A DNA stretch of 24,440 nt from positions 1-24,440 of the IMG/VR virus record IMGVR_UViG_3300005935_000135. One strand, written 5' to 3'. Origin of the DNA: a virus. The notes beneath the pieces were generated by a model that saw only the letters and a program-made list of their open reading frames with translations, searched no databases and was not told where the DNA came from. Positions 2,945 to 23,751 of the stretch are shown piece after piece. Position 1 is the first letter of the stretch; every line of letters starts with the position of its first letter. A program made the position numbers and the translations under genes.

Positions 2945-3325
2945 ATGAAACTATCTATTGCAATACTTCTAATTTTCAGCGTTCTTTGTGGAATTGCTGA
3001 CGCGGCTGACGAAACCTGCACCACGGGGAATACAACAGGATCGGCTTCAGGGTTGCTCTTTACCGGTGGAGGATATCTAAGGGCTATTCAGCTTACACCG
3101 GACACAAATGACGTTATCTTGACGTTGTATGATAGCAAAACTGCGGCTTCCGGCAGGGTTGTTGGATATTGGTCAACTGCCGGGTCTGCGAGTCCATTAA
3201 CGTCCGGAAGAACATACGACGATGTTTTGTTCAAAACAGGACTTTATTATTCGATTACCCAAACCGGAGCTACGTTTTCGGTAGAATATGGGACATCGAC
3301 TGGAAGGTGTGGGGCTGGTTACTGA
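2945..3325 (+). CDS. Small exported phage protein
   Basis: 126 residues. Start at ATG 2945 is set by AGGAG at 2932-2936 and by a signal peptide beginning right there: MKLSIAILLIFSVLCGIADA, then ADE, with an A-D-A cleavage site. The mature part is a short beta-rich domain of about 105 residues with only two cysteines, near its two ends (ETCTT and GRCG), which could form one disulfide after export. First gene after the terminator and first of a run of seven signal-peptide genes. The stop overlaps the next ATG (TGATG). Family not recognised; probably a small virion exterior or fibre-associated protein by neighbourhood. Confidence 0.75.
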   Translation: MKLSIAILLIFSVLCGIADAADETCTTGNTTGSASGLLFTGGGYLRAIQLTPDTNDVILTLYDSKTAASGRVVGYWSTAGSASPLTSGRTYDDVLFKTGLYYSITQTGATFSVEYGTSTGRCGAGY

Positions 3326-3522
3326 TGAAAAAAATACTTATTATCACACTTACAATATTATTGTTCGCCGGTTCTGCTTACGGTTCTTTTTGGTTTTACA
3401 GGGATCAGGGCTCACCGGAAGCAGTTGGTGGAGGCGCTGGTGGACCTTCAGCCGATGCCGTACTATTGGAGTCAGGCGACTTTTTACTGCTTGAATCAGG
3501 CGATTATCTATTATTGGAGTAA
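3325..3522 (+). CDS. Small exported protein with tandem LLLESGD motif
   Basis: 65 residues from ATG 3325, which overlaps the preceding TGA and has only a weak ribosome site, so it is probably translated by coupling. Signal peptide MKKILIITLTILLFAGSAYG, then a short aromatic stretch (SFWFYRDQ), a glycine-rich linker (VGGGAGG), and a C-terminus made of three near-identical units, LLESGD-F, LLLESGD-Y, LLLE. LLLE-x-G type repeats occur in small proteins beside phage tail-fibre genes (from memory); their role is not established. Sits directly before the tailspike, so it may be a spike-associated protein. Confidence 0.7.
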   Translation: MKKILIITLTILLFAGSAYGSFWFYRDQGSPEAVGGGAGGPSADAVLLESGDFLLLESGDYLLLE

Positions 3523-3525
3523 GTT

Positions 3526-6500
3526 ATGAAACATTTATTGAGAATATTATTTATTTTGTTCTTGACCTTTGGAATAGCGCAGGGCGCTGACCAGAAAGTC
3601 TCCGAACTTCCGGCTCCGTCAGGCGGGGTTGCCGGTGATGATAAATTCTACATGGTGGATGACTCCGGCTCTGTTTCTGTCGGCGATACGCTCACTAACG
3701 TATGGACTTACTTCGGCTCGCTCTTGACCGCTTCCGACGTTCCTATAGTAGATGCTGGAGGGTATTTTGAAGGTGGCGAGGTAGAGGCCGCACTTCAGAA
3801 AAATGGATTTCTTTTAACGGATATAACTGATGATGTTGCTTTGAATAGATTTACAGTATCAAGCGCTGTGTCGGGTGGAGTTTGGACAGTTACAATAACT
3901 CAAGACGATGGGCTTGATCTTGCGTTTAATATAGACAAAGTACATTTAAAAAACGATGACGACACTATGTCTGTTATCGCTACATCATTTGCCGGAACAG
4001 ATGCTAGCCCCAACACCGTTTATGTTTATGTAAGAAATGTCACTGGAACGGCAACATTAACAGCTTCGAATACAAGTCCAGAAGGAGTATTAGAACATGT
4101 GGATGTTGCAAATTATAAAGCTGGTGCTGTTTCCGCTTCCTCTTTGACTCTGTATGGCGGGTTTACTACCGCAATGACAAGTTATGAAGTGGTTCATCAT
4201 ACCTATCATAGATTTTGGACAGATGGTTCAGCATACTATTCAGGAATGGATATCACAGCAGTCCAAGCCAATGTTACGATAGCCACTGGATCTCTAAATA
4301 CAATTTTTGACACAATTACCACAACTCAAAAGGTTGTTGGAACTGATGGATTGTTTCACATTTTAAATGCTGGGACATATAGCACATTAACCGATTTTGC
4401 TTTTACCCATTATTCAACTGGAGAAGCGATATCGGCTAATAAATTTTATAATGTAGTTCTTGGAGTAGTTGAAGAAGATACAACAAGAATTATGGCCTTA
4501 GTTCAGAAGGCTGATACAATCCCAGGCGGAAAGGAGTATAAGAATTCAAAAGAAGCAACAGAGGATAAATATGGAACTCTGGTTTTAGCTCCATCGGATA
4601 CATTATTGAAAGGTATTTTTATACCGGTTTGTAGGATTATTATTAAAAATGATGTGAATGATTATCTACAAGAAATTCCGGAAACAGGCACGGGTCTTTA
4701 TGCGATTGATTTACGTGGGTCAAAAGGCGGAGGCGGCAGTGTCGCAACTGCGAGCAATACTAATGCAGGAACAGCGAACAACGATTCTTTATATTGGAAT
4801 AATACTTCTGGTGAGTATGATTATAAAACCCCAACTGAAGCAAGGGTGATACTTAATGTTGCGGATGGTGCAGAGGCAAATGTCGTATACACCGGCACAG
4901 CAAACGAAATAGATTTAACAGGTACGGCTTTCGGGATTGTCAGCAATCCGATAATTCCTGGCAATGAAAAGATGCAGCTGCCTGCTGGAACCACAGGGAC
5001 AAGACCCGGAAGTCCTTCGTACGGGGATATGAGATTCAACAGTTCAACAGACCAACTTGAGTTTTATCTGGCCGCATGGGCTCAGGTAGTAGACAGTGCA
5101 GATATTGGTGTGAGTGTTGAAGCTGCCGATGCAGCGATAGTAAAATCAGACGAAGAAGAAACTATATCAGTTTCTTGGACATTTGCTGATAATGTAGTTA
5201 TGCTACTTTCGGACGTTGATGCTTCTGAAGCGGATCAAGGTGCAGCCGGTAATGGTCAAACAGTAAACGCTCTGATAGATGCTGCTGCTGGTAATCCTTT
5301 GACGCTTCGTTTTAAACACACTGATCAAGATGCTCAGACAGTTTATACATTTGACACTGATGAAACTATACCGTCCACAGTTAGCATGGTAATTGAAAAT
5401 GGGGCTGCGCTTACTGGTAACACAGGTGATGAAACTTTAACTGTTTATGGAAGTATTCAAGCCGGTTTGCATAAATGGATACAGGGAACAGCTCTCACAA
5501 TCGCAGGTAGTCCAAGAGAAAAAATTGTTTATCCTGAATGGTGGGGTGCTAACGGCGATGGCACTGGTGATGACACAGCGGAAGTTCAATATGCCATAGA
5601 CACCGCTGTGACTATTGCGTCAGGTACGTTTTTAGATGTTGGAGATATTGGGTGTGAGGTCAGGTTAAATGGTCAATATAATATAACTTCAACAGTTAAA
5701 ATGATTAATGCAGATGGCGTTGGACTTGTAGGTACTGTTGGTCGTGGAGCGCAGTTATCTTCCAGTACTGCTGACATTGTACTTCTACAGCTTGGTGATA
5801 ATAGGTATAAACTAACAGTTGTTGATTATTCAACGATTGGTGTAGCTGATACAATTACAATAGATGGATCAGGGATTACCGATACAACTCTTGAAGAAGG
5901 AGATACATGGGATGCAGAAACAAGTAATGATGTTACTGCCACAAATATTGCAGCAGCTATAGATGCTGTTTCTGGTATTTCAGCTTCGGCAGTTGCAGCG
6001 GTTGTCACGGTGACTCCTGATACTGGATCGGTGATTAATGAGTTTTGGACTATTTCTGAAACATCGGAATTGGTATTAGCATCAAATGAACGAACTTATT
6101 TTGTACATATTGAAAATATTATCTTTGCTGCCGGTGGAGCAATAGATGAAAGCACAACAACAAAGGCTATAGAAGCGCACGATGCTATTTTTACAACTAT
6201 TAGAGATTGTAAATTTAACAATTGGGCGTATGCCATTGACGGTTACAGGTTTAATACAAGCACAATAGACAACTGCCTTTTTACTCAATGGAGCCGAGCG
6301 AACACTCCTGCCCCTGCTGCAATCGCTTTATCTGGACGCGCTACAGATGGTTTCACTTCAGGTGGAAACCACATAACTAATTGCGAGTTTAGGGGTTCGG
6401 GGGCAACACAAGATCATGTATGGTCTAATATTTTTGTTATAAGGTCTGTTGATGGTTTATATATACAGAATTGTCATCTGTATAAATATGCTTTTGGTAT

Positions 6501-7437
6501 TAATTTTACACCCGATGGCACAAATAGAGGTAATTTTATTACCGATGTAATGGTTGATAATTGCTATTTTGATGAACCTGAGAATAACTGCGTTATTATA
6601 GGCGGAACGGTAGCTGCCTCTGGTAGCGGTGTAGGTAAGGCAGGTGTTTATCAAAACATTAAATTTGCTAATTGTTATTTAAGGGGCATGCTGGCCTCCG
6701 ATGGTGGACTTACATTTGCAGATTATTTAGTTTATATAGCCATTACCGCTGCTCAGATTGTTCCAAGTAATATTTCATTTCATGGTGGTACAATGCGTCA
6801 AGCAGGAATAACCGCCATTCGAGTTGACGGTACGGCCCAATCTAAAGTTGATATAGCAAACTTTCAAGTGAAAGATGTCCACTTTGAAGATAATGCATAT
6901 GATGGGGCGCAAACTCAATCAGCTATTATGTGGAATGATGGCGACAGCATAATGGTTGATGGTTGTTCTTTTGGCCCAGATGAGAATGCCTCAACACGAT
7001 TAATAACTGTTACTGCTACAGATAATGGTGGGTACATTGGACCTATGGATTTCTCAGAGTCTAATTATACTGGAACCACACCTGTTGTTGCTGATTTTAT
7101 GTACTATGAAGGGCCATTGGCAAGTGGTGAGTGGAATATAGCTAATGAGGGTTTTGCAAGTTATGCTTTAGGTGAAGGTTCATATTTAATTTCTGTTATG
7201 GCTAAGAGTAGTGTAGAGCGTGGCGGTCAGATAATGGCTGAGACGGCAGGAACAAATACTATCTCAATCGTAGGTGGAGGTTCTGATTTTGAAGTTTTGA
7301 CGGTGGCGTTAAATGGAACAACTGGAAATGGCGGCAAAGTAACAGCTTCGGTAGACGCTGATGGCGTGTTTTATCTTGAGAACCAGATAGGTGGGACACT
7401 TGCTTTTGCATTTAAGGTTTTGCATCAGATTAAATAA
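3526..7437 (+). CDS. Tailspike with pectate-lyase-type beta-helix and N-terminal signal peptide
   Basis: 1303 residues; ATG 3526 has GGAG seven bases upstream. Order of parts: Sec-type signal peptide (MKHLLRILFILFLTFGIAQG, cut before ADQ); a short K-V-S-E-L-P-A-P-S-G-G segment like the N-terminal anchor of many tail fibres; about 600 residues of fibre-like beta domains, including a GTTGTRPGSPSYGDMRFN module; then PEWWGANGDGTGDDTAE near residue 671, the signature opening of pectate-lyase-3 parallel beta-helices; an inserted small beta domain near 776-832; and a long beta-helix with repeated N-C-x-F rungs (about 880-1150). Such spikes bind and often cleave host surface polysaccharide; enzymatic activity is not shown by sequence alone. 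DNA composition changes sharply after about 3800 (see findings). Confidence 0.88.
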   Translation: MKHLLRILFILFLTFGIAQGADQKVSELPAPSGGVAGDDKFYMVDDSGSVSVGDTLTNVWTYFGSLLTASDVPIVDAGGYFEGGEVEAALQKNGFLLTDITDDVALNRFTVSSAVSGGVWTVTITQDDGLDLAFNIDKVHLKNDDDTMSVIATSFAGTDASPNTVYVYVRNVTGTATLTASNTSPEGVLEHVDVANYKAGAVSASSLTLYGGFTTAMTSYEVVHHTYHRFWTDGSAYYSGMDITAVQANVTIATGSLNTIFDTITTTQKVVGTDGLFHILNAGTYSTLTDFAFTHYSTGEAISANKFYNVVLGVVEEDTTRIMALVQKADTIPGGKEYKNSKEATEDKYGTLVLAPSDTLLKGIFIPVCRIIIKNDVNDYLQEIPETGTGLYAIDLRGSKGGGGSVATASNTNAGTANNDSLYWNNTSGEYDYKTPTEARVILNVADGAEANVVYTGTANEIDLTGTAFGIVSNPIIPGNEKMQLPAGTTGTRPGSPSYGDMRFNSSTDQLEFYLAAWAQVVDSADIGVSVEAADAAIVKSDEEETISVSWTFADNVVMLLSDVDASEADQGAAGNGQTVNALIDAAAGNPLTLRFKHTDQDAQTVYTFDTDETIPSTVSMVIENGAALTGNTGDETLTVYGSIQAGLHKWIQGTALTIAGSPREKIVYPEWWGANGDGTGDDTAEVQYAIDTAVTIASGTFLDVGDIGCEVRLNGQYNITSTVKMINADGVGLVGTVGRGAQLSSSTADIVLLQLGDNRYKLTVVDYSTIGVADTITIDGSGITDTTLEEGDTWDAETSNDVTATNIAAAIDAVSGISASAVAAVVTVTPDTGSVINEFWTISETSELVLASNERTYFVHIENIIFAAGGAIDESTTTKAIEAHDAIFTTIRDCKFNNWAYAIDGYRFNTSTIDNCLFTQWSRANTPAPAAIALSGRATDGFTSGGNHITNCEFRGSGATQDHVWSNIFVIRSVDGLYIQNCHLYKYAFGINFTPDGTNRGNFITDVMVDNCYFDEPENNCVIIGGTVAASGSGVGKAGVYQNIKFANCYLRGMLASDGGLTFADYLVYIAITAAQIVPSNISFHGGTMRQAGITAIRVDGTAQSKVDIANFQVKDVHFEDNAYDGAQTQSAIMWNDGDSIMVDGCSFGPDENASTRLITVTATDNGGYIGPMDFSESNYTGTTPVVADFMYYEGPLASGEWNIANEGFASYALGEGSYLISVMAKSSVERGGQIMAETAGTNTISIVGGGSDFEVLTVALNGTTGNGGKVTASVDADGVFYLENQIGGTLAFAFKVLHQIK

Positions 7438-7460
7438 GGAGCATAGACCGGAGTGATAAA

Positions 7461-8447
7461 ATGAAAAATATGAAACGAATAACAGCTTTCCTTAAAAATC
7501 CAACGATCAAGGCCCAAACGACAGTCTGGTTCGTGTTTTTATTTATTAGTGTCTCGACTGTATGGGCTGCTGATAGTAAAGTGTCGGATCTATCGGCTCC
7601 GGCCGGTGGGCCTGCACCTGGAGACAAAGCATATATCATAGACGTTTCTACCGGCCTGTCAACGGCGGATACTTATGCAAACATACTTGGAGTGGGAACC
7701 GACCTGGAAGCTGGAGGCGCTTTGAGTGCAAGCACAGTGGCCGACAATGAGCTTGATTATGGTAATATAACATTCAGTCTTTTCACGGCTCCGATTAATA
7801 ATTTGGACAATCCGACCGGAGCCATGAATTACAACATGGGAACGTATGGACACGCTTGGACACTTGGCACTGCTGGATTTATTAGTTTTCGTAAGGATGG
7901 TACGGATAGGATAGACATTACGAATGATTCGGGTGATCCAACAATCAGCTTTCACGGTACGGGCAAGGCTGAGTTCGGACAGATAACCTCTACTGATGAC
8001 TTTATTCATGTCGTAGGCGCAGGAGATGAAATAGCTGAAGAGTATCTCGTAGGTGGGCCGCTTCATAAGTCTTGGTCATTTGATCCGGTAGCGGTTTGCG
8101 CCGGAGATGTTGATGCTCTATTGCTTATGACTGTAGGGGACAATGCCCCTAATGGTATAAGGATTGTTGAGTGGTCAGTATCTTTTTCACAAGACCCTGG
8201 TACTGAATTCGGTACAGTCCATGTGCTGTTAAAAAGAGCAACAGCGTTTATTGGGCAAGGTTCTGCTGCAACAATGGGTGACCTCGAAACTACAAGTGGA
8301 GTGTCCGGAGAAGACACATATACAAATATTAACACTGATGGAAGCGTGGTGGCAAATGGACAAGTTATCTTCCTCGACTTTGATACAGCCTATACAGCGA
8401 CAGGGGAACAAGTTATCTTTGAAATGTGGTATTATGCGGTTGATTAA
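7461..8447 (+). CDS. Exported tail-fibre-like protein
   Basis: 328 residues; ATG 7461 with GGAG at about 7450. The N-terminus is longer than in its neighbours: about 16 basic or polar residues, a hydrophobic core (VWFVFLFISVSTVWA), then AADSKVSDLSAPAGG. This is clearly the same anchor segment as in the upstream spike (ADQKVSELPAPSGG). After it come fibre-like beta segments (NLDNPTGAMNYNMGTYGHAW; SFRKDGTDRIDI) and a C-terminal beta-sandwich-like domain (about 205-328). The next gene starts inside its 3' end. Likely a second receptor-binding or spike-base protein sharing the same virion attachment site. Confidence 0.8.
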   Translation: MKNMKRITAFLKNPTIKAQTTVWFVFLFISVSTVWAADSKVSDLSAPAGGPAPGDKAYIIDVSTGLSTADTYANILGVGTDLEAGGALSASTVADNELDYGNITFSLFTAPINNLDNPTGAMNYNMGTYGHAWTLGTAGFISFRKDGTDRIDITNDSGDPTISFHGTGKAEFGQITSTDDFIHVVGAGDEIAEEYLVGGPLHKSWSFDPVAVCAGDVDALLLMTVGDNAPNGIRIVEWSVSFSQDPGTEFGTVHVLLKRATAFIGQGSAATMGDLETTSGVSGEDTYTNINTDGSVVANGQVIFLDFDTAYTATGEQVIFEMWYYAVD

Positions 8448-9021
8448 ATACATACTCATTCTATTACTGATTCCGGCACTCGCTTCCGGGGGCTGGTATT
8501 ACGCTGGAACACATGAAGTTAAATATTACGGCTTCCCGAATACTGCCGGAACGCCCTCTGCTCCTGTTGGCTCTTGGACTTCGTGGGGGACTCCTGTTGA
8601 TAGTACATACTGTAACAAATATGACCCTATAGTAAGCGGGACAATCACAGGGATCAATGCGTATGTGCGGAATGATAGCTGGACTACAAATGCGTGGCTC
8701 GTTGTCTATCGCGAAACTGCGTTAATTGGATATTCAGATGCCTTGGGTACGCCTGGGGTTGGCTGGACAGGTTATTTATCGCTAAATGTGGTCGGTGGGC
8801 AGAACCTTAATTACACATCGGGCGACAATGATCTTTACTATGGTCTTGCGTGGGATGCGAGTGATGGAGATCCAAAATTAGGTTACGACGATGGGGGAAG
8901 TAGTGTTGATATTTTTTATGACACTGCGCCGGTGCATTCGGGCGCACCTGATCCAACGGCTACGAGTTGGGCTACTTCTGCGGCAGATGATATGGGAGTT
9001 ATTTTGAGGGTAACGGAATGA
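8434..9021 (+). CDS. Exported beta-rich protein, probable fibre component
   Basis: 195 residues. Start ATG 8434 is chosen because the signal peptide begins exactly there (MRLIKYILILLLIPALASG, then GW); it overlaps the previous gene by 14 bases and lacks a strong ribosome site, so translational coupling is likely. The upstream in-frame extension to 8251 only reads through the preceding gene. The mature part is rich in Gly, Trp, Tyr and Asp and looks like a single beta-sandwich of about 175 residues (GTITGINAYVRNDSWTTNAW; DNDLYYGLAWDASDGDPKLG), resembling carbohydrate-binding or fibre-tip domains, though I cannot name the family. Its stop overlaps the next ATG (ATGA). Confidence 0.78.
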   Translation: MRLIKYILILLLIPALASGGWYYAGTHEVKYYGFPNTAGTPSAPVGSWTSWGTPVDSTYCNKYDPIVSGTITGINAYVRNDSWTTNAWLVVYRETALIGYSDALGTPGVGWTGYLSLNVVGGQNLNYTSGDNDLYYGLAWDASDGDPKLGYDDGGSSVDIFYDTAPVHSGAPDPTATSWATSAADDMGVILRVTE

Positions 9022-10796
9022 AGAAACTGCTTATCGTATTGTTTTTGCTTTACGCTCAGAGTGTTTGGGCTACTAATTATTACTGTCGAGATGATGCAAG
9101 TGGCGGAGATGGTTTGTCAGATGCCACCGCTTTTACTTTGGCTGAAGTGAATGCAAAGAGTGACTGGGTAGCTGGTGATGACGTTTATTTCAAGTGTGAT
9201 GACACTTGGACAGGCGAAACTTTAAATATAGACTGGAGTGGTGTTGATGCAGGCAACCCGGCAATTGTCGGAGCTTATTATGGGTCTGGAACAATAGGGG
9301 TAAGTGGAACCAAGCCAACAATAGACGGAGAATATACTTATCCAACTGCTACGTGGTCACATCTAATCGGCATAGATACTCAATCCTATATAACTCTTAC
9401 GAATATCAGAGTGGTCAACTCTCTTGCCAGGGCTATTTGGGTTGATGAGTCTTCGTATATTGATGTCTTAAATTGTGACGTAAACAAAGCATATAGAACG
9501 GGGATTGGTTTTGGTGGCCCAAGCAATAACTGTTCTGCTATAGGGTGCACAGTAACAGATGTTGCATGGGTATATCAAGTAGCTGATTGGCCTGCTGCAA
9601 TTTTTTGTATGAATGGTTGCGATAGCATGACTTTTAGCGACAACACTGTCCATAATAATTGGGGAGAGGGTATTGGTCTTTACTACCACACTACCAATAG
9701 TCTTGTTGAAAACAACTTCGTTTATGAGAACCGAAGAGTTAATATATATAACGGTTCAAGCAGGAATAATATAATAAGATATAATCTAATCTTTGGACAT
9801 GGAAGTGATTCTAACGGTCACGGAATTATGATAGATGACGAACAGTGGCACAATGACGCTTACTCGGAAAATGTAGAAATATATGGTAACTTTATTGCTT
9901 ACTGCTATGTTGGATTTTACTTCGGTACTTCACATGAGGATGCTGTTTTTAAAGATCATAAAATTTACAGTAATACTCTTGTGGATAATGTTAGAAACAT
10001 GGGTTTCTATGGCAACAAGGATGCTGAAAACTCTGAAATAAAGGATAACATTTTTTATTGTATTACGGGCGGGGGTTGTAGTAATTTGTCATGGACTGCT
10101 GACAGCGATATAGACTTTGACTACAATTTGTGGTCATCTGAGCCTGATACGAATGCCAAGGGAGCTAACGATCTTTCCTATGCTGATCCTGTGATTCTAA
10201 GAACGTCGGGATGGAGAGAGTTGGGTGGTGAAAACGTAGTTGTAACTGATTTTGCACTTCAAGTAGGCTCTCCAGCGATTAATTCGGCAATAAACTTAGG
10301 TTCTCCTTATGACATTATAGTAGACGCTGAAGGATCAACGTTTCCGGCAAGTGTGGTTGCAGGAGATCAAGATGATTATGGTTCAGGATGGGAAATAGGG
10401 GCTGATTTGTATGGAGTTCCTCCAACCTTGACTAATTTGACAAGCACCCCTGTTTCCTGTGTAACCGACCCACTGAATCACGACATGGTGTTCTCAACAA
10501 TATTAAATGTAGAATTAAAATATGATTCCTCAGATGTGGCTTTTGGGAGCATGGGGGATACATTTACGAATACTGATGATACGAGTCATTCAGAGACTTT
10601 AAGTTCGCTATCCTGTGGAGTTACTGAGACACAATATGTTAGAGGGCAGGATGAGCTTGGCTATACAAATGAAAGTTCAACACAGGTGGACATAGTTGTT
10701 CAAGGGAGCCCAGCATTGCCTCACGAACATTCACTGACAACTGGATCAACACACTCTTTAACGGCTGGATCAACACACAGCATAGGAGCACAATAA
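9018..10796 (+). CDS. Exported right-handed beta-helix protein, second candidate spike
   Basis: 592 residues; ATG 9018 overlaps the preceding TGA. Signal peptide MKKLLIVLFLLYAQSVWA, cut before TNYY. Residues about 20-110 resemble the N-terminal cap of secreted beta-helix (polysaccharide-lyase-like) proteins (YYCRDDASGGDGLSDATAF). Residues about 110-400 contain beta-helix rungs of the right-handed parallel type (SLVENNFVYENRRVNIYNGS, NIIRYNLIFG, NVEIYGNFIAY). About 475-570 looks like a separate Ig-like domain. The C-terminus is a tandem STHSLT-type repeat rich in histidine. The mature chain has 12 cysteines, some in the beta-helix ladder. Likely a polysaccharide-binding or depolymerising spike; no catalytic residues can be assigned. 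Confidence 0.8.
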   Translation: MKKLLIVLFLLYAQSVWATNYYCRDDASGGDGLSDATAFTLAEVNAKSDWVAGDDVYFKCDDTWTGETLNIDWSGVDAGNPAIVGAYYGSGTIGVSGTKPTIDGEYTYPTATWSHLIGIDTQSYITLTNIRVVNSLARAIWVDESSYIDVLNCDVNKAYRTGIGFGGPSNNCSAIGCTVTDVAWVYQVADWPAAIFCMNGCDSMTFSDNTVHNNWGEGIGLYYHTTNSLVENNFVYENRRVNIYNGSSRNNIIRYNLIFGHGSDSNGHGIMIDDEQWHNDAYSENVEIYGNFIAYCYVGFYFGTSHEDAVFKDHKIYSNTLVDNVRNMGFYGNKDAENSEIKDNIFYCITGGGCSNLSWTADSDIDFDYNLWSSEPDTNAKGANDLSYADPVILRTSGWRELGGENVVVTDFALQVGSPAINSAINLGSPYDIIVDAEGSTFPASVVAGDQDDYGSGWEIGADLYGVPPTLTNLTSTPVSCVTDPLNHDMVFSTILNVELKYDSSDVAFGSMGDTFTNTDDTSHSETLSSLSCGVTETQYVRGQDELGYTNESSTQVDIVVQGSPALPHEHSLTTGSTHSLTAGSTHSIGAQ

Positions 10797-10797
10797 A

Positions 10798-11118: not shown

Positions 11119-11159
11119 TAAAATAAAGACAACTGACTCAATCTGATCGGAGGTTTAAA

Positions 11160-11770: not shown

Positions 11771-11773
11771 ATT

Positions 11774-15477: not shown

Positions 15478-15497
15478 ATTTAAAGGAGGTGAGGCAA

Positions 15498-15692: not shown

Positions 15693-15706
15693 ACCTTTAA
15701 CCCAAT

Positions 15707-15750: not shown

Positions 15751-15764
15751 AAAGGAGGTACGAA

Positions 15765-16805: not shown

Positions 16806-16812
16806 CAAAGCG

Positions 16813-16846
16813 CCTTCTCTGTAAGGTGCAGCGTTGACAGAGAAGG
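16813..16846 (+). promoter_or_regulatory. Hairpin overlapping the capsid ribosome site
   Basis: CCTTCTCTGT (16813-16822) pairs perfectly with ACAGAGAAGG (16837-16846) around a 14-base loop. The 3' arm runs into the GGAG (16846-16849) that serves ATG 16858, so folding would partly hide the ribosome site. No T run follows, so it is not a terminator. Regulatory role is inference. Confidence 0.6.
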
Positions 16847-16857
16847 GAGACAAACTT

Positions 16858-16989
16858 ATGATAGCAGCAGCAGCAGGAACGCCACAATTCAGTGGCAATT
16901 TTATCCCGGAAAAATGGAGTCGCATGCTTTTAGTCAAGTACTATATAGCATCCATCTTCCCCGGGATGGCCAACACGTATTACGAGGGT
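16858..16989 (+). CDS. Major capsid protein, exon 1
   Basis: 44 codons from ATG 16858 (GGAG at 16846-16849) to GGT 16987-16989. Contains FSGNFIPEKWSRMLLVKYY, the conserved N-terminal start of a coat family with the HK97 fold, and ends MANTYYEG. Homologues continue D/E-I-K/R-N-Q-G-D, which is exactly what exon 2 supplies. Read without splicing, the frame stops one codon later (TAT TAA), so the 45-residue product would be useless as a coat. The final T of the exon forms the U-G pair of intron P1. Confidence 0.85.
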
Positions 16990-17247
16990 TATTAATGGCT
17001 CTCTCTAAACAGCGTGAATTGCTGGAATATCCTAACGTAAAGACGAGGACAATCAGCAGCCAAGCTTCCTGGAAACAGGTTGAAGGTTCAGAGACTAACG
17101 CATGGAACCTAAGCTCACTTTGTGGGCATGGTGGTAAAGCGACACGAGCGCGCTGCGGTTTGTTTAAAAAAGAACCGAAGATATAGTCCGGTCTGCATGG
17201 AAACATGTAGGAGCCGAGGATAAAGAGCCTCGGACGTAAACACAACG
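16990..17247 (+). ncRNA. Group I self-splicing intron (258 nt) in the capsid gene
   Basis: P1: exon GAGGGT (16984-16989) pairs with guide GCTCTC (16998-17003), ending in the required U-G. P4: TTGCTG (17019-17024) with CAGCAG (17054-17059). P6: CTTC/GAAG region capped by a GAAA loop (17072-17075). P7: GACTA (17093-17097) with TAGTC (17184-17188), inside TTCAGAGACTA and AAGATATAGTCC, both typical of phage and cyanobacterial group I introns. P9: CTGCATG (17193-17199), GAAA loop, CATGTAG. P9.1: CCGAGG (17214-17219) with CCTCGG (17228-17233). A short P3 (17012-17015 with 17098-17101) is possible. The intron ends with G at 17247. No homing-endonuclease frame is present. Length is divisible by three but it contains stops. 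Confidence 0.93.
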
Positions 17248-18039
17248 GATATCAGAAATCAGGGCGATGTTGTAAAGATTCGTACCCGTCCTGACATCGA
17301 GATTCTTGATTACACCAAGAACCAGGTGCTTGACATTCAGCATCCTGACAATCCTCTCGTTGAGTTTCCGATTGAACGTGCCAAGTATTACAATGCGATT
17401 TGTGACGACATCGACAAGCATCAGTCTGACATTGCTCTTATGAGCGAGTGGGGGCAGGATGCAGCCGAGCAGATGAAAATCACAATCGACAGTGAGGGAC
17501 TTGGTTCTGTATATGCGGATGCTGATTCGGATAATACTGGCATAACAGCTGGTAAGGATTCTGGAATTTATGACATGGGCGTTGCGGGAAATCCCGTAAG
17601 TATCACTAAGGAGAATGTTATTGACATCCTTATGGATATGACCGCGTGTCTTGATGAGCAGAATGTTCCGGAGAGCAATCGGTGGTACGCACTTGCCTCA
17701 TGGGTGTGCAACTTGATTAAGAAGTCTGAAATCAAGGATGTTTCCATGACAGGTGATAGCCGGTCTGTATCCAGGCATGGTAGAATCGGTTCCATTGACA
17801 ATAACCCTATCCTTAAAAGCAATCAGATCCACAGAGTTGTGGACGGCATTACTGGTAATAACGCTTATTACAACATGGCCGGTCATAAAGACGCGATTAC
17901 TTTCGCAAGTCAGATCACCAAAACTGAGACACTTCAGTCTGAGAGAACCTTTGGTCGTCTGATCCGGGGATTAAACGTTCATGATTACAAGGTCATTAAA
18001 GGTCAGGGTCTTGTAACGGCTTATTCCGATAAGGCGTAG
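17248..18039 (+). CDS. Major capsid protein, exon 2
   Basis: 263 codons plus TAG, in the same frame as exon 1. Joined product is about 307 residues: ...NTYYEG then DIRNQGDVVKIRTRPDIEIL. Clear coat-family signatures: AKYYNAICDDIDKHQSDIAL, EQMKITIDSEGLG, VDILMDMTA-like helix followed by LDEQNVPESNRWYALA, and SERTFGRLIRGLNVHDYKVI near the end. It builds the icosahedral shell. A gene caller that ignores the intron would start at ATG 17326 and lose the N-terminal arm and the first part of the fold. Confidence 0.92.
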   Translation, partial: DIRNQGDVVKIRTRPDIEILDYTKNQVLDIQHPDNPLVEFPIERAKYYNAICDDIDKHQSDIALMSEWGQDAAEQMKITIDSEGLGSVYADADSDNTGITAGKDSGIYDMGVAGNPVSITKENVIDILMDMTACLDEQNVPESNRWYALASWVCNLIKKSEIKDVSMTGDSRSVSRHGRIGSIDNNPILKSNQIHRVVDGITGNNAYYNMAGHKDAITFASQITKTETLQSERTFGRLIRGLNVHDYKVIKGQGLVTAYSDKA

Positions 18040-18089: not shown

Positions 18090-18605
18090 ATGAAGAAACT
18101 GAAAATATTTACAATTTTCATGGCGGTATTTGCAATGCTTGTTGCTCCGGCACTTGCTGATACTATTGACCAGACCGCGAGCGGTGCGGGTACTGTAATG
18201 CCTAGTTCTTTCGGGAATGGGTTTTACAGAATGACAAAGATTATTGATTTTGCTGATGTTCTTACTGAGAAGGAGTCTGCCCTTGCAGCAGCCGACATTA
18301 TACAGGTCTTTGACATTCCGAAGCGCCATGCGGTCTTAGCGGCTACAATCAACCCAATCACGGTAGGTGACTCAACTACCGCAACACTGGATTTAGGTTT
18401 TACAACCTTGCCCGAGGCTGACCCCGATAATTTTGTGGACGGCTACGATGCTATTCAGGTTGCGAGTAGTGGTGTTCCGATCTTCAACGTCGAAGGTTAC
18501 GCTCTCGACTCAGCCACGACAGTCGATATGGTGATCAAGACCCTATCGGGGACTTTGGCGACAGGCAAGGTCAGAGTGACTGCTATTATTTGGGATATGA
18601 GATAA
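18090..18605 (+). CDS. Decoration-like capsid protein with signal peptide
   Basis: 171 residues; start ATG 18090 is fixed by AGGAGG eight bases upstream; an in-frame TTG at 18066 has no site. Signal peptide MKKLKIFTIFMAVFAMLVAP ending ALA, then DTIDQ. The mature part (FYRMTKIIDFADV, ADIIQVFDIPKRHAVLAATI, DSTTATLDLGF, PDNFVDGYDA) resembles small beta proteins encoded after the coat gene in many podoviruses, probable capsid decoration or stabilising proteins, which normally lack a leader. Mature chain has no cysteine. Followed by a terminator. Confidence 0.8.
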   Translation: MKKLKIFTIFMAVFAMLVAPALADTIDQTASGAGTVMPSSFGNGFYRMTKIIDFADVLTEKESALAAADIIQVFDIPKRHAVLAATINPITVGDSTTATLDLGFTTLPEADPDNFVDGYDAIQVASSGVPIFNVEGYALDSATTVDMVIKTLSGTLATGKVRVTAIIWDMR

Positions 18606-18667: not shown

Positions 18668-19192
18668 ATGAGAAAAAGGAAAAATGAGGGGCCAGCCAGG
18701 TACCTTAAATTAGTAACCAACAATGCAGTTTTTACGTATTCCCCAATACTGGCAAAGCGTAGGGATGTTATTGAAATTACCGAGGCGGAAGCATTCCATT
18801 TGATCGATCCGGACAAATATCCGGCTCCGAAAGACCTTACGAACTTGAAGAACATCGCTCCCGAACTGATGGATATTATGTCCAAGCTTAAACCGGGTCA
18901 GTTTTCCGAGCTCCAAAAGGCAGCAGAGCAACTTGTCAACAGTCAGTCGGCCATTGATCTTGATGAGGCTACAGAACCTCCACCTGAAGATGCTGAACCT
19001 CTTACAGAAGATCCCGAAGAGGATGTTGATGATTCAGACGAAGAAAAACCGTATGATAAGATGAATATGATTGGGAAGATAGATCATATTTTCCTCAAAC
19101 ACGGCAAGGTGCTTAATCCCGACGAGTACAAAAAACATGCCGATATCGACGCAGAGCTTGAAAAACTCGAAGCGGAAGAGAAAGCAGCATGA
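18668..19192 (+). CDS. Unrecognised acidic head-tail region protein
   Basis: 174 residues; ATG 18668 with AAGGA upstream. First 70 residues look folded (RYLKLVTNNAVFTYSPILAK, EAFHLIDPDKYP); about 95-130 is strongly acidic and proline-rich (EPPPEDAEPLTEDPEEDVDD), a disordered linker; the end is helical and charged (DAELEKLEAEEKAA). Stop overlaps the next start (ATGA). Similar small acidic proteins follow decoration genes in several phages, but I cannot name a family. Confidence 0.68.
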   Translation: MRKRKNEGPARYLKLVTNNAVFTYSPILAKRRDVIEITEAEAFHLIDPDKYPAPKDLTNLKNIAPELMDIMSKLKPGQFSELQKAAEQLVNSQSAIDLDEATEPPPEDAEPLTEDPEEDVDDSDEEKPYDKMNMIGKIDHIFLKHGKVLNPDEYKKHADIDAELEKLEAEEKAA

Positions 19193-19887
19193 CTGTCGAA
19201 GAACTCATAATTCAGGCCGCAATGGAATTTGGTGGGTATGATGCCGATGCCGAAACTGGAGAGGAATACGCCAGGGTGTTGCTTCCACAGTGGGTATATT
19301 TTTTCAACAATTCCCTCAAGCAGCTTCTTGGAACTCGGCCCGACACGCATGTTAAGTTTGTGAAAACATTTCAATTAACAGCAAATGAGACTCGTCATGC
19401 CCTACCTGATGACTGTGTTCATTTTGTGAACATGACGAGAAACACGGGCGTTGCAGGCGCAACTCCTGGGGAGCCTATCAAGGGTCCGAAAACTATTGAA
19501 GACCTTGGCGTTTTAGATAGTGGCTGGCATTCTGACACAGGCGTTACCGTGATGGAGTTTTTTGCATTTAACAAGAAGGCTCCTGATGTTGTCTGGACAT
19601 ATCCGAGAGTTCATGCCTCAACAGCCGTAATGGTTGAAATTGAATATGCGTATCCATTCGATGAATATCTTGAGGACGACATATCAACAGATGACATTCC
19701 TGTTGAAGCTCAGTTTGAGCAGCCTTTAAAAATGTGGATGAAAAAGCAAGCTTTTGAAATCGATACTGATTCACTTCCTGACTGGAATCTTTCAATCAGG
19801 TTTGAGAAATCATTCTATTCGTCTCTCGGTATTGAGTTCCAAACAGGGTCAACGATAGCACCACAAAAGGAGCGAGGAAATGACTAA
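19189..19887 (+). CDS. Phage adaptor protein (head-tail connector)
   Basis: 232 residues. The run HALPDDCVHFVNMTRNTG, a GATPGEPIK segment, LGVLDSGWHSDTG and FFAFNKKAPDVVWTYPRVHA match a podoviral adaptor family (I recall DUF6682) that sits between portal and tail nozzle. N-terminal residues (VEELIIQAAMEF) form the usual first helix. No signal peptide. Overlaps neighbours at both ends (ATGA upstream, eight bases downstream). Confidence 0.82.
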   Translation: MTVEELIIQAAMEFGGYDADAETGEEYARVLLPQWVYFFNNSLKQLLGTRPDTHVKFVKTFQLTANETRHALPDDCVHFVNMTRNTGVAGATPGEPIKGPKTIEDLGVLDSGWHSDTGVTVMEFFAFNKKAPDVVWTYPRVHASTAVMVEIEYAYPFDEYLEDDISTDDIPVEAQFEQPLKMWMKKQAFEIDTDSLPDWNLSIRFEKSFYSSLGIEFQTGSTIAPQKERGND

Positions 19888-20533
19888 AACCTATGAAGAA
19901 TTCAGAGAATACTTTGAGCCAGAGATGTTCTTCGCTCCCAAAAAGACCGCTATTAATAAAATCAGGGAAGCCGTTATCGAATTCTGCGAACAATCGAGAC
20001 TCGTCTTGCTTGATGCCACAGTTATAGACATTGTTGCCGATACAAAAGAGTACGCCATTGTTTTTGATCCGGCCTATTATCTTCCTGTTGAGATCGGCAA
20101 AGCTTATCTCGGTGACGGTACTAAAACCGACACGGAACTTACTGTGACCTCGCGTAGGCGTATGGACATGAGCGTTGCCAACTGGAGTGTTTTAGAAACA
20201 GGAAGCGATATCACGCACGTATTTTTGACCAAAACTAGAAAAGTAAGAGTTTATCCCATTGCCGACAGTGATATTGATGATCACCTGTATTTGAAAGATG
20301 TTGCCGTAAAACCCAAAAGGGATGCCACGCAAATTGTCGATTTCATTTACGATGATTATCTCGAGGACATTAAGCACGGTGCTCTTTATTTTTTAAAGCA
20401 GATGAAAGGTCAGGATTGGTATAATTCGAAAATAGCCTCTCACCACAGAGATATGTTTTACCGAGCGATCGCTGACGCAAAAGGCGAAAGACTGCAGGGG
20501 CTTGCCGACTATTCAGGAAGTTCAATGTTTTAG
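19880..20533 (+). CDS. Second head-tail adaptor / tail-tube-like protein
   Basis: 217 residues; ATG 19880 with AAGGAG about ten bases upstream, inside the preceding gene. N-terminus YEEFREYFEPEMFFAPKKTA followed by INKIREAVIEFCEQSRL is a frequent opening of podoviral connector proteins; the middle is beta-rich (RVYPIADSDIDDHLYLKDVA) and the end helical (IASHHRDMFYRAIADAKGER). It likely extends the portal-adaptor channel. No signal peptide, consistent with assembly in the cytoplasm. Confidence 0.68.
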   Translation: MTKTYEEFREYFEPEMFFAPKKTAINKIREAVIEFCEQSRLVLLDATVIDIVADTKEYAIVFDPAYYLPVEIGKAYLGDGTKTDTELTVTSRRRMDMSVANWSVLETGSDITHVFLTKTRKVRVYPIADSDIDDHLYLKDVAVKPKRDATQIVDFIYDDYLEDIKHGALYFLKQMKGQDWYNSKIASHHRDMFYRAIADAKGERLQGLADYSGSSMF

Positions 20534-20542: not shown

Positions 20543-21454
20543 ATGAAGAAATTCTTTCTAACCTTATTTTTAATTTTACTTGTACCTTTCTCAGCCAATG
20601 CCGCACTTCAGCAATTTGCTAACAATGCGGTGGCGAACCTTGCTGGAGACATATCAAATGTAGCCACGACCATAACGATTGACGATGCTACCGGATGGCC
20701 CACGGCTGACGGTTCGGATTGGTTTATGGGCACTTTAGTTCAGGCAGATGGTGACATGGAGATTTTTAAATGCACCACAAGGGCAGGAAATACTTTAACA
20801 GTCGTAAGGGCTCAAGAGAGCACCACCGGGCTTACTTGTACCGCATCTCCGGTAACAATCGTATCTTGTAGGCTTACCGCTGAAACTATTGACGAATTTG
20901 TCACCTTAGACGGCCCTCAGACCTTAACGGAAAAACAGCTTACCACTCCGCATATTAACGAAGCTGTGGATTGCGATGCAACGTCTACCGAATTAAACAC
21001 AGCCGCAGACGGTATTTCTGATCCTCCGTTAGCGGGGGACGCTACTGCGGGAAGGGTGTTAAGGGCCATTAATGTCTTAATCGCAGACGGCACAGCTTCA
21101 GGAATTAATTGCACCGTCACTGATCTTTGGAACGGTGACGCTATATCCATTGTTGAAGATATCACAACTGGCGCTACAAAAGGAGATTTCTCGCTGGCCG
21201 CTAATGGTGGAACTCTTACGATAGAAGCAAGCGGTCTTACAGGGAACTGTGTTGGCGTTTTGATGGCCGATGTAACAAAAAGCAAGTCTACTCTTGGGGC
21301 CACTGAACCTATCTATGCATTATCTATTATGCAGACAAACGATATTATTATTCAGCTTTGGGGTGGCGGAGAGACTGCAGCTAAAAATATGACCACATAT
21401 TTAAGCGCGACTGAGTATGTTCAAGTAAAGATTCTTTATGTAACGGACGAATAA
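20543..21454 (+). CDS. Tail-fibre-like protein with signal peptide
   Basis: 303 residues; ATG 20543 with AGGAG at 20532-20536. Signal peptide MKKFFLTLFLILLVPFSANA, then ALQQF. Mature N-terminus contains a known fibre module: TTITIDDATGWPTADGSDWF, LVQADGDMEIFKCTTRAGNT, LTVVRAQESTTG; then GPQTLTEKQLTTPHINEAV and a STELNTAADG stretch, both routine in tail-fibre shafts. The C-terminus is a beta-rich tip. Six cysteines in the mature chain. The leader is unexpected for a fibre lying between connector and nozzle genes. Confidence 0.82.
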   Translation: MKKFFLTLFLILLVPFSANAALQQFANNAVANLAGDISNVATTITIDDATGWPTADGSDWFMGTLVQADGDMEIFKCTTRAGNTLTVVRAQESTTGLTCTASPVTIVSCRLTAETIDEFVTLDGPQTLTEKQLTTPHINEAVDCDATSTELNTAADGISDPPLAGDATAGRVLRAINVLIADGTASGINCTVTDLWNGDAISIVEDITTGATKGDFSLAANGGTLTIEASGLTGNCVGVLMADVTKSKSTLGATEPIYALSIMQTNDIIIQLWGGGETAAKNMTTYLSATEYVQVKILYVTDE

Positions 21455-23473
21455 ATGAAAAAATTAGCTCTCATATTAAGTCTTTTTTTATGCTCGACCG
21501 CTTTTGGTCAAGGCATATCGATTAAAGCGTTTAAGGGTGAGAATCCTCGTTATGCGGATAACATTCTCGATGTTACCGACGCTAAGATTGCCGAGAACTG
21601 TAAACTTGACAGGGGTGATTTAAGGTCGTTTAGGGAGCATTCGGAAACAGAAGTGTTAGCCGATGCCGACGTTGAATCATTAAATGAATTTGATGATGAT
21701 TTTATTGTCGATGAAGACGATCTTAATTATGCCGATTCTCCAATATCTAACGATACTTATGGCAGAAAATACTTTACCGGAAAAGCCGAAATGCGGGCTT
21801 ATTCTTCCGAGTTGGTTTATCCTCTTTATTATAAAGTTGGAGTTCCTGCCCCTACCATACAACCCACGGTAGCTGTTAACACAGGCGGTTCAAGCAACGA
21901 AGAAGAACGAATTTATACCTATACAAGGGTTACTGACTACGGTGAAGAGGGGCCTCCGTGTCCTATTACTGATTTACCAGGAAGCGCTTTTTTAGCCGAC
22001 GATACGGTTGATATTACCCATATTGAATCCATACCGGCCACAAGAGAAATAACGACTTTAAGGGTTTATAGAACCGTGGCCGGGTCTGAGGACACCGCAG
22101 AGTTTGTTTTCGTGAAAGATTACACACTTCCTACAATCGAGGGTGATTGGGCTACCGGGGTTTCCAGTGGTGACGATGGTGAATATTGGCAATTTGACGA
22201 TGGCTCTGATGACATTATTTATAAATGTATTAATGATAGTACCTCTGAAGACCCTGACGATGCCACGCATGGCGTAGGCGGGTCTGGTGCTGATTATTGG
22301 GAATATTACACTCTATTAGATAACATAGACACAGCCGACTTAGACACTGGTTCGGTTTGTCCTTCTACATACTGGGCTCCGCCACCGGACGGATTGACCC
22401 ATTTACAGGCACTTCCTTCTGGAAGAATGATGGGATTTGTCGGGAATACTTTATATCTTTCTGAGCCTTTTCTTCCTCACGCATGGGGGCCGGATACGAT
22501 ATCATTTGAACAAGACATTGTAGGAATAAGTTTTTTTGGCTCTACGGTTGCTGTGTTAACGGAGGGTTATCATTCTGTCGGGTTTGGTGACGATCCGGCT
22601 ACGATGATTTTTAATCAGTTAAATGATTTCTGCCCTGCAGCTGCTAAAAAGTCTATAGCCAGGATTAAAAACAGTGTTATATTTGCATCCAAAAGAAGCG
22701 GCCTTAAAGTAATAAACCAAGACGGAATAGTCACTTTAACGACTTCTTTTCTATCAAGGGATGATTGGGTTGATTTTCAACCAACTACTCTCCAAGGGTT
22801 TGTTTATAATAATAAATACTTTGCGTTTAACGAATCGGCTTCGGGTACGAGTTTTATGATTGACCTGGAATTAAACACGTTCACTAAATTAAAAGATACA
22901 GTTTACGCCGGATATGTTTCTATTGCTGACGGCAACTTTTATGTTGTCGTAAATGAATTGGAAGATCCAGAAGACCCAAATTCTGCGCTCACTAACAAAA
23001 TAAAACAATGGGAAGGCGAAACTTATAATTATAAAAGATACATTTGGAAGACTAAAAAATTCCAGCTTGATTCATTGGTGAATTTTTCTGCAGCGAGACT
23101 GACAAGAGACGAATACTGGTATGATGATCTTATATCTGCAATGTCTGACAGTGATTACCTTGAAGACTTAAATGAGGACATGATGGACAATCAGGAACTT
23201 TTCGGGGCCATAGGATGTGCCGCTATAAATGAACTGGCTATCAATGATGATTATCTCTATACCATACAAAATACTACATTAAATAATACAGTTACGTTTA
23301 AATTATATGTAGAAGGTTCCCCTACTCCAAAATTAATAAAAACAATAACAAACTCAAAGCCGTTTAAATTGCCTGCAGGATATAAGAGCAGGATATTCGA
23401 GATTGAATTATCAGGTTACGTGCCTGTAAAGACGATAGATATATCAACATCCGTGAGGGAGTTGGGACAATGA
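21455..23473 (+). CDS. Large tail protein, nozzle-like, with signal peptide
   Basis: 672 residues; ATG 21455 directly follows the preceding TAA and has only a weak ribosome site. Signal peptide MKKLALILSLFLCSTAFG, then QGISIKAF. The mature protein matches podoviral tail proteins of the nozzle or stabilising class: opening GENPRYADNILDVTDAKIAE, a YTYTRVTDYGEEGPP beta module, LPSGRMMGFVGNTLYLSEPF and DTISFEQDIVGI, and repeated beta-propeller-like blades up to about 520. Six cysteines after the leader. In known phages this protein extends the tail tube; a secretion signal on it is surprising. Confidence 0.8.
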   Translation: MKKLALILSLFLCSTAFGQGISIKAFKGENPRYADNILDVTDAKIAENCKLDRGDLRSFREHSETEVLADADVESLNEFDDDFIVDEDDLNYADSPISNDTYGRKYFTGKAEMRAYSSELVYPLYYKVGVPAPTIQPTVAVNTGGSSNEEERIYTYTRVTDYGEEGPPCPITDLPGSAFLADDTVDITHIESIPATREITTLRVYRTVAGSEDTAEFVFVKDYTLPTIEGDWATGVSSGDDGEYWQFDDGSDDIIYKCINDSTSEDPDDATHGVGGSGADYWEYYTLLDNIDTADLDTGSVCPSTYWAPPPDGLTHLQALPSGRMMGFVGNTLYLSEPFLPHAWGPDTISFEQDIVGISFFGSTVAVLTEGYHSVGFGDDPATMIFNQLNDFCPAAAKKSIARIKNSVIFASKRSGLKVINQDGIVTLTTSFLSRDDWVDFQPTTLQGFVYNNKYFAFNESASGTSFMIDLELNTFTKLKDTVYAGYVSIADGNFYVVVNELEDPEDPNSALTNKIKQWEGETYNYKRYIWKTKKFQLDSLVNFSAARLTRDEYWYDDLISAMSDSDYLEDLNEDMMDNQELFGAIGCAAINELAINDDYLYTIQNTTLNNTVTFKLYVEGSPTPKLIKTITNSKPFKLPAGYKSRIFEIELSGYVPVKTIDISTSVRELGQ

Positions 23474-23751
23474 AGAAAGTCTTTTTAATTGTGGTGCTTA
23501 TTGCGCTTGGAATAATATATGCAGTTGTGACGGCTTTCGGGGCTAATTATTATAAGTTGCCTAACGTGCCCGGACGGCTAGAACCGAAAGGACTTTATGT
23601 GTTTTTGACCGAACTAAAAAAGAAATTTGAAATATATTCAGGGGCTTCAAACGATAGAGTAATGACATATCAGGACTTAATAAATTTGGGATTAATCGAC
23701 AAAGCTGGTGATCCTGTGAAACAGGTGAATCCTTACGAGTATGGCATATGA
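23470..23751 (+). CDS. Small protein with N-terminal signal or TM segment
   Basis: 93 residues; ATG 23470 overlaps the preceding TGA. Residues 4-24 form one hydrophobic segment (VFLIVVLIALGIIYAVVTAF), followed by GANYYKLPN. AFG before AN could be a cleavage site, but the long core could equally stay as an anchor. The rest is soluble, with a short helix (GLYVFLTELKKKFEIYSG). Stop overlaps the next ATG. Family not recognised. Confidence 0.65.
   Translation: MKKVFLIVVLIALGIIYAVVTAFGANYYKLPNVPGRLEPKGLYVFLTELKKKFEIYSGASNDRVMTYQDLINLGLIDKAGDPVKQVNPYEYGI

Follow-up and report, generated by a model that had tools for sequence, protein, structure and literature searches.

In the window, i.e. the whole 24,440-nucleotide stretch of viral DNA that we analyzed, Sec-type leaders are predicted by sequence only on exterior parts when the virion genes with an assignment are considered, and this suggests a particle that is put together in two compartments of the cell and completed at host-cell rupture. 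Our main reading, to which we give a probability of about 0.5, is that of a derived phage clade with Sec/SPase I leaders on every identifiable exterior protein and on a spike cluster, where these parts would dock at lysis.

Genomic context

The window comes from a podophage of the Bcep22/PBC5 type and together with contig G004 implies a 58.9-kb circle. Its nozzle belongs with those of GP4 and T7 (gp12) and matches phrog_511, and the gene order is capsid, cement, adaptors, fibres, nozzle, small protein, acetyltransferase, internal proteins and giant polyvalent protein. The same order, from capsid to giant polyvalent protein, is found in the Bcep22-like podophages (BcepIL02, JC1; genus Lessievirus) and in Sinorhizobium phage PBC5. 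These three phages have a nozzle and a fibre homologous to those of the window, as well as equivalent cement-position and small proteins. However, their nozzle, fibre and cement-position proteins are leaderless (one BcepIL02 fibre reaches a sub-threshold 10.9), a trait of the other members looked at that the window does not share. Another feature that sets the window against these phages is a spike-like cluster between the terminase large subunit (TerL) and portal genes. The relevant genes, with predicted leaders, are as follows.

329-1963, +: terminase large subunit, leaderless (phrog_675, 7e-92)
2945-3325, +: SP1, 126 aa, first gene of the spike-like cluster; leader 2945-3004, score 15.5
3325-3522, +: SP2, 65 aa; leader 3325-3384, score 14.5
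3526-7437, +: SP3, 1303 aa, spike/fibre-like; leader 3526-3585, score 13.4
7461-8447, +: SP4, 328 aa; leader about 7461-7568, with a long n-region
8434-9021, +: SP5, 195 aa; leader about 8434-8490, score 14.7; weak Shine-Dalgarno match
9018-10796, +: SP6, 592 aa, right-handed beta-helix, spike-like; leader 9018-9071, score 15.0
10798-11118, +: SP7, 106 aa; leader 10798-10866, score 16.4
11160-11462, +: putative holin with one hydrophobic segment, leaderless (from sequence; no Pfam match)
11462-11770, +: putative endolysin, leaderless, with an M15-peptidase-like H/D/H pattern (from sequence; no Pfam match)
11774-13798, +: portal, leaderless (phrog_332, 1.5e-24; phrog_1216, 3.6e-9)
15765-16805, +: probable scaffold, leaderless (position; phrog_13678, 1.4e-10, a phrog of unassigned function)
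16858-18039, +: major capsid protein, leaderless, in two exons, about 16858-16988 and 17248-18039 (phrog_267, 1.1e-29)
18090-18605, +: SP8, capsid cement/decoration protein; leader 18090-18158 (structure model)
19189-19887, +: head-tail adaptor 1, leaderless (phrog_399, 3.1e-19)
19880-20533, +: head-tail adaptor 2, leaderless (phrog_437, 5.3e-23)
20543-21454, +: SP9, tail fibre with cysteine pair C99/C109; leader 20543-20602 (phrog_8469, 9.3e-21)
21455-23473, +: SP10, tail nozzle; leader 21455-21508 (phrog_511, 2.3e-91)
23470-23751, +: SP11, small fibre-anchor-like protein; leader about 23470-23541, score 17.3

Leader prediction

N-termini were analyzed with our own scorer, which looks for a basic start, an uncharged hydrophobic core and small residues at -3/-1. 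Sec-type leaders were thereby found at the start of 11 out of the 27 called genes (SP1-SP11), and were absent from the other 16 (0/16 scored at all) as well as from the capsid gene. The latter is interrupted by a group I intron and for that reason missing from the 27 called genes; its N-terminus was read from the intron-free L003 and L002. Ten of the 11 genes score 13.4-17.3 from the starts given above. The long n-region of SP4 leaves it without a score from the first ATG (7461); from ATG 7470 (the G004 copy) it reaches 13.3. The hallmarks of Sec/SPase I signal peptides, i.e. a basic n-region, a hydrophobic core (strongly so, with means of 2.8-3.8) and small residues at -3/-1, are all present. 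An earlier note on this DNA had proposed these same eleven N-termini as Sec leaders; all exist and exceed the threshold of 12.5, including the one at 23470, which it had listed only as possible (17.3). For the genes at 8434 and 23470, our cleavage sites lie 2 residues away from those that it gives, and none of the proteins that it called leaderless (terminase, portal, scaffold, capsid and both adaptors) scores as a leader.

For calibration, we ran the scorer on 185 proteins encoded in five regions of E. coli K-12, which we sorted into classes with the product names as a guide. The 12.5 threshold was passed by 0/109 cytoplasmic and 17/28 exported proteins, along with 3/8 lipoproteins, 6/39 inner-membrane proteins and 0/1 Tat substrate; at a threshold of 11, the cytoplasmic and exported counts were 1/109 and 23/28, respectively. 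Scores below 11 (highest 10.9) were classed as leaderless. Since six inner-membrane proteins pass, first membrane helices can score as leaders. Past the leader, ten of the 11 mature window proteins look soluble (19-residue hydropathy maximum of 0.2-1.5), and SP3 is borderline at 1.80. The background was 32 out of 863 forward ORFs of at least 80 aa passing 12.5, in 79 nozzle-selected loci that include clade members and L023/L028. Weak Shine-Dalgarno matches were found at the genes starting at 8434 and 21455. PEP-CTERM tails were not seen on any of the 11 virion-type genes. A PEP-CTERM protein is encoded by G004, and an O-antigen-ligase-like protein by both G003 and G004.

Exterior and inner proteins

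Four leadered genes have phage homologues, namely capsid cement, tail fibre, tail nozzle and the small fibre-anchor-like protein. The SP8 model matches capsid chains of Pam1, KHP30 and GP4 and the cement protein of KHP40, and the SP10 model matches the GP4 portal-tail chain 8jov_A (E 8.8e-31) and the T7 nozzle gp12, with pLDDT <50 at residues 1-17 and a well-folded structure directly after. Homologues of all four outside the clade are leaderless and start about 3 residues or less from the predicted mature start: the SP8 homologue in L176 opens MATIDM at the SP8 mature start, SP9 residue 25 aligns to position 5 of the phrog_8469 profile, and the SP11 homologue in L021 (42% over 52 aa) opens MKLPDIP. 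The L002 version of SP11 is 639 aa long. By homology, leaders are found on 4/4 exterior vs 0/9 inner or packaging proteins, for which chance is 1 in 715 with classes picked after the split had been found.

The genes between 2945 and 10798 are only probably exterior, and some of SP1-SP7 may be exported non-virion proteins. Residues 458-518 of SP3 match, at 44%, a protein of Methylophilales phage MEP401 that is annotated as tail fibre, and SP3 and SP4 have the mature start AD.KVS.L.AP.GG in common. SP6 has a Pfam Beta_helix match (8.3e-14); neither SP6 nor the L023 spike found a match among cultured phages. SP1 and SP7 have leadered homologues in G003 (40% and 36%, respectively), the SP1 pair being the only one found in the viral scan. 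In addition, G003 has spike-like genes of 235, 1047 and 483 aa, all leadered and matching nothing in the window cluster at an E-value below 0.011. Two of the six spike-like leaders in G003, at 31694 and 32697, score only from a later ATG.

Distribution of leaders among relatives

The nozzle carries a leader in 3/80 viral loci, the best of at least 580, and in 0/34 bacterial contigs, a count that includes L275 and L283, whose matches begin at query residues 128 and 288, beyond the N-terminus. A first genome scan showed no relative; the second gave 34 nozzles, distant and leaderless, most of them from alphaproteobacterial records. The fibre survey covered 79 loci of 151, and the cement survey the best 80 of at least 389 relatives. 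In a tree of 32 rows, the leadered nozzles form one clade of single origin (support 100/100).

The identity of leaders between clade homologues ranges from 5/20 to 12/21, and that of the first 100 mature residues from 27/68 to 79/100. Leader identity is below mature identity in 8/8 comparisons, nearly equal in one, yet the leader is kept in all eight; random change would keep 1-21% per leader at an assumed 0.25-0.35 substitutions per site. Judged by these comparisons, the clade leaders are maintained, drifting in sequence yet staying leaders.

The inside/outside split described earlier is real, and it is also seen in G003. It holds across the clade and is absent in the examined homologues of other phages. 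Beyond the virion module, too, some ORFs of G004 and G003 pass as leadered. The syntenic sister phage G010 carries leaders on only two spike-like genes within its virion module and has a leaderless nozzle, and L023 has leadered spike-like genes beside a leaderless nozzle. Leadered spikes alone therefore do not imply a two-compartment scheme. Leadered spike- or enzyme-like genes together with nozzles lacking a leader are found also in L025 and the cultured phage PBC5, where the leadered gene of the tail cluster is the enzyme-like orf16.

Cysteines

The C99/C109 pair occurs in 3/3 leadered and 0/79 leaderless fibres, and the fibre probably forms a periplasmic disulfide. With incomplete ORFs left out, the cysteine content of leadered vs leaderless proteins is 1.17 vs 0.73% for the nozzle, 1.33 vs 0.72% for the fibre and 0.67 vs 0.83% for the cement protein, which gained no clade-only cysteine. 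Clade-only cysteine sites make up 3/957 exterior vs 8/3933 inner columns (p = 0.46), or 3/957 vs 0/3480 with TerL dropped afterwards. Disulfides as a general reason for export were rejected, content being only modestly higher and the site test not significant with TerL kept.

Proposed assembly and alternative explanations

The leaders look functional, and Sec export of the leadered proteins is well supported on sequence grounds. We infer all four of export, leader cleavage, fibre disulfide and assembly site. In the proposed mechanism, the host translocon would export cement, fibre, fibre anchor, nozzle and spike-like proteins, which would fold and oligomerise in the periplasm. The inner parts (portal, capsid, scaffold, adaptors and internal proteins) are leaderless, and DNA-filled, adaptor-capped heads would be built in the cytoplasm. 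At lysis, the putative holin would open the inner membrane, the two halves would meet, and nozzle, fibres, spikes and cement would dock on the packaged heads. The full version, in which the whole exterior is Sec-exported, oxidatively matured and joined at lysis to a head made in the cytoplasm, and which arose stepwise with spikes first (G010, L023, PBC5), is somewhat short of an even bet.

Mass spectrometry of the JC1 virion, according to the part of the paper covered, identified gp61 (nozzle homologue), gp56 (same-family fibre) and gp49 (cement position); gp57, the best SP9 match by hit position, is not among the virion proteins given there (PMC9144972). JC1 gp49 is equated with cement by position only. 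Because the nozzle normally seals the head, heads without it would have to hold their DNA until lysis, and, counting against docking at that stage, exterior parts may be diluted on cell opening.

An alternative, which we consider unlikely, is dual use, with an exported share displayed or shed (as decoy, superinfection exclusion factor or polysaccharide enzyme) and an unexported share assembled in the cytoplasm. The leadered spike- or enzyme-like genes accompanying leaderless nozzles in G010, L023, L025 and PBC5 would fit this, as would the O-antigen-ligase-like protein of G003 and G004 and the PEP-CTERM protein of G004, but it leaves unexplained the leaders on cement and nozzle, neither of which has a known surface function. 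Of the three options offered earlier for the exported parts, free display on the host consequently fits worst. Dual use also lacks an internal start yielding a leaderless form at the mature N-terminus: in a scan to 25 codons past the cleavage site, none of the 11 genes had a well-placed start where its mature protein begins, and fairly well-placed Shine-Dalgarno sequences occurred only at the SP6 TTG codon 33 and the SP11 GTG codon 44, 15 and 20 codons beyond the cleavage site, respectively. Neither the nozzle nor the fibre nor the cement protein had a second copy in the window, G003 or G004, and leaderless forms by either route were rejected.

Export could also be real with assembly taking place before lysis at the inner membrane, where exterior parts wait and heads dock from the cytoplasmic side. 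Strongly hydrophobic leaders suit membrane targeting, and filamentous phages assemble exported coat proteins there (PMC4823517). This is nevertheless quite improbable, as ten of the 11 mature parts are without a second membrane-like segment (SP3 reaches 1.80), cleaved soluble proteins beyond an intact membrane would be out of reach of the heads, and no extrusion ATPase or secretin was recognised among the scanned subset of G003/G004 proteins.

More doubtful still is that the leaders are uncleaved hydrophobic tips kept in the virion, e.g. touching membranes at entry. Leader cleavage is so far unobserved, but all the leaders combine a basic start with a small-x-small site, the sequences drift with the type kept, one leader is on the cement protein covering the head, and homologues begin right past the predicted cleavage site. 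Lastly, we give hardly any credence to host-derived secreted proteins or relics without assembly role, for although SP6 has its Beta_helix match and many secreted proteins of bacteria have beta-helix or enzyme-like folds, cement, fibre and nozzle are phage-type by fold and family, single-copy and syntenic, an argument that does not extend to SP1-SP7.

Relation to known systems and significance

Phage-encoded proteins with export signals include the SAR endolysins; neither these nor Lom or the o-spanins are known to be structural virion parts. Export signals are likewise described for lambda Lom (PMC12309495) and the lysis protein Rz1 (PMC9144972), and phage DGR proteins are given as lacking signal peptides (PMC6199706). 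The Inoviridae virion proteins pIII and pVIII have type I signal sequences and are Sec-exported (PMC4823517). Inovirus coat proteins are anchored in the membrane and their virions leave by extrusion, whereas the window phage has a terminase-packaged capsid, leaders on exterior parts only and no such anchor predicted in ten of its 11 mature leadered proteins, whose 19-residue hydropathy does not exceed 1.45 (SP3 again at 1.80). A tailed phage with exported exterior parts is not described in the literature searched, which covered subscription journals only to a small extent.

In the textbook view, tailed phages assemble wholly in the cytoplasm. If the two-compartment reading is true, the virion exterior can be added from another compartment, virions would have a natural route to disulfides or other modifications made in the periplasm, and lysis would become an assembly step.

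Phage identity and gene content

The window is identical to G004, a contig of the same phage, over positions 1-17485 and 22565-24440, at both G004 ends. Together, the two overlaps imply a circular molecule of 58,919 bp. Profile matches identified TerL (terminase large subunit, phrog_675), a portal, a probable scaffold, a capsid, two adaptors, a tail fibre (phrog_8469) and a phrog_511 nozzle, and the gene order from the capsid onward is that of Bcep22-like phages. The phage is a variant of the Bcep22/PBC5-type podophages, new as such. G003 (56.6 kb, portal 66% identical) belongs to the same clade, of which L002 is the third contig. The window's phage was also found in another metagenome, 3300025736 (contig L297, 99.99% over 8.7 kb). 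Other elements in the clade were:

window 16980-17210: group I intron (Rfam RF00028, 80 bits), inside the major capsid gene
L010:2475-12821 (-), from G004: polyvalent protein, 3448 aa, with ADP-ribosyltransferase, inorganic pyrophosphatase and LPD domains
L009:3496-3786 (-), equal to G004 21496-21786: small protein of the phage carrying a signal peptide and, at its C-terminus, a PEP-CTERM motif (PF07589, 3.8e-9)
L009:4749-5909 (-), from G004, and L013:2270-3364 (-), from G003: membrane protein resembling O-antigen ligase (Wzy_C), shared by these two clade phages

The intron is absent from L003, a 99.8% identical contig of the same metagenome that lacks window 16989-17247; at this site G003 has a larger insert and L002 none. 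The PEP-CTERM protein suggests a host with an exosortase.

Signal peptides and their scope

Sec-type leaders had been claimed in the earlier note for about eleven genes, and their absence for terminase, portal, scaffold, capsid and both adaptors. The eleven genes are a spike-like cluster (SP1-SP7), cement (SP8), tail fibre (SP9), nozzle (SP10) and a small fibre-anchor-like protein (SP11). The claim was borne out: all eleven leaders are present, 10/11 passing our own scorer from the proposed start and the gene at 7461 from its second ATG, and 0/16 of the other genes score. At the threshold used (12.5), calibrated on 185 E. coli K-12 proteins whose classes we assigned ourselves, 0/109 cytoplasmic, 17/28 exported and 6/39 inner-membrane proteins pass. 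Beyond the leader, hydropathy over 19 residues stays at or below 1.5 in 10/11 proteins; SP3 reaches 1.80. ORFs outside the virion module of G004 (e.g. 21496-21786 and 22749-23909) and of G003 pass too, as expected of membrane and exported proteins. Directly past the cleavage site, the mature forms of SP3 and SP4 both begin with AD.KVS.L.AP.GG (window 3586-3640 and 7569-7620).

Confidence that these proteins are exterior varies. For the nozzle, the structure model (mean pLDDT 81) resembles the GP4 portal-tail chain 8jov_A (E 8.8e-31) and the gp12 nozzle of T7. For the cement model (mean pLDDT 77), structural hits with TM-scores of 0.43-0.59 were capsid chains of Pam1 (8.6e-6), KHP30 (5.7e-4) and GP4 (1.1e-3) and the trimeric cement protein of KHP40 (2.9e-3). 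In the accessible part of the JC1 report, purified virions analysed by mass spectrometry contained gp61, gp56 and gp49 (PMC9144972), i.e. the nozzle homologue, a fibre of SP9's family and the protein after the capsid, respectively; the best SP9 match in JC1 sits at gp57, which is not among the virion proteins named there. SP10 is thus assigned as exterior with good confidence, and SP8 and SP9 with fair confidence. According to the same part, the small protein was not seen in JC1 and Bcep22 (gp62/gp68) and was seen in BcepIL02 (gp64) (PMC9144972); SP11 is probably exterior, and its L002 homologue extends into a 639-aa protein. SP1-SP7 are placed outside by resemblance only, SP6 being a beta-helix protein (Pfam match) and 61 residues of SP3 matching an annotated tail fibre.

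Leaders as an addition

Judged by their homologues, the leaders are an addition to exterior proteins. Leaderless nozzles, fibres, cement and small proteins start at most about three residues from the predicted mature start (MKISIKAF in the nozzle of G010, a syntenic sister phage; MADQLFVNN and MATIDM in the fibre and cement of the viral relative L176; MKLPDIP in the small protein of another, L021). Leaders were found in 3/80 nozzles (best 80 of at least 580 relatives), 3/79 fibres (79 of 151) and 2/80 cement proteins (best 80 of at least 389), all in the clade, in sets that contain many near copies; the L002 cement protein, leadered as well, lies outside its set. Nozzles on bacterial contigs had leaders in 0/34 cases, two being too partial to judge. 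In a 32-row nozzle tree with leaders excluded, the three leadered rows form a single clade (100/100).

Relatives with some leadered genes include:

G010 2021-2620 and 2617-4317: two genes with strong leaders, spike-like by appearance, directly before the portal
L014:10482-11531: orf16 of PBC5, a cultured Sinorhizobium phage; leadered enzyme-like protein between the fibre and nozzle genes

G010 (61.5 kb) has the window's gene order (portal 55%, capsid 55%, nozzle 52%, cement 51% identical), with cement, fibre and nozzle all leaderless; two small ORFs beyond its module also pass the scorer. Among other relatives, L023 combines leadered spike-like genes with a leaderless nozzle, and L025 has a single leadered spike-like gene. 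The C-terminal block of PBC5 orf16 is presumably SGNH-hydrolase-like, from its motif, and a homologue occurs at L279:6910 in a Sinorhizobium MAG. The simplest reading is that leaders were gained stepwise, first by spikes and later by other exterior parts in the window's clade. Three leadered genes in a row were also seen downstream of a leaderless fibre gene in contigs L158 (9161-13442) and L159, the one at 9871 of L158 containing a fibre-type VANGGTG stretch.

Maintenance of leaders and cysteine content

Between the window and G003 or L002, leader identity is 5/20 to 12/21, lower than over the 100 residues that open the mature protein (27/68 to 79/100; the L002 cement protein shows almost no difference), and the leader is kept in 8/8 comparisons. 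Simulated random change kept each leader in 4-21% (0.25 substitutions per site) or 1-9% (0.35) of cases, a guide only, as these rates are assumed and not the leaders' own. Three spike-like genes of G003, whose best match in the window's cluster is no better than E 0.011, are all leadered, one only from a later ATG; the leader thus seems to go with exterior position rather than with descent.

Cysteines were considered as a sign of export. C99 and C109, ten residues apart, are common to the three leadered fibres, which count as one event because they form one clade; among leaderless fibres both occur in 0/79 and one of them in 1/79. A wider test of cysteine sites was not significant (exterior 3/957 vs inner 8/3933 columns, p = 0.46). 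All inner sites (8/8) are in TerL, and the G010 gene taken as TerL by position gave no blastp match to the window's; with TerL excluded post hoc, the counts are 3/957 vs 0/3480.

Production and assembly

At the mature starts of the eleven genes, internal initiation codons with a suitable Shine-Dalgarno were absent, and neither the window nor G003 nor G004 yielded a further copy of the nozzle, fibre or cement gene, so these parts are most likely made only in leadered form. Leader hydrophobicity should commit them to the membrane early. Directly before the portal lie holin-like and endolysin-like genes, both leaderless and called from appearance alone.

One possible use of the leaders, display of exterior proteins or their deployment as decoys, accounts for leadered spikes but leaves those on cement and nozzle unexplained. 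Cement, nozzle and fibres would be explained together by a model in which exterior parts are exported, fold in the periplasm and dock onto packaged heads once lysis opens the inner membrane. In phage P22, adding tail parts in extracts can complete the heads, which makes docking after lysis plausible.

Export of virion proteins is known in filamentous phages, as described in the accessible part of PMC4823517. Searches of an open-access library turned up no case of a tailed phage whose exterior parts are exported, an absence that is weak evidence. If assembly in two compartments were demonstrated, it would represent a new type of morphogenesis in tailed phages.
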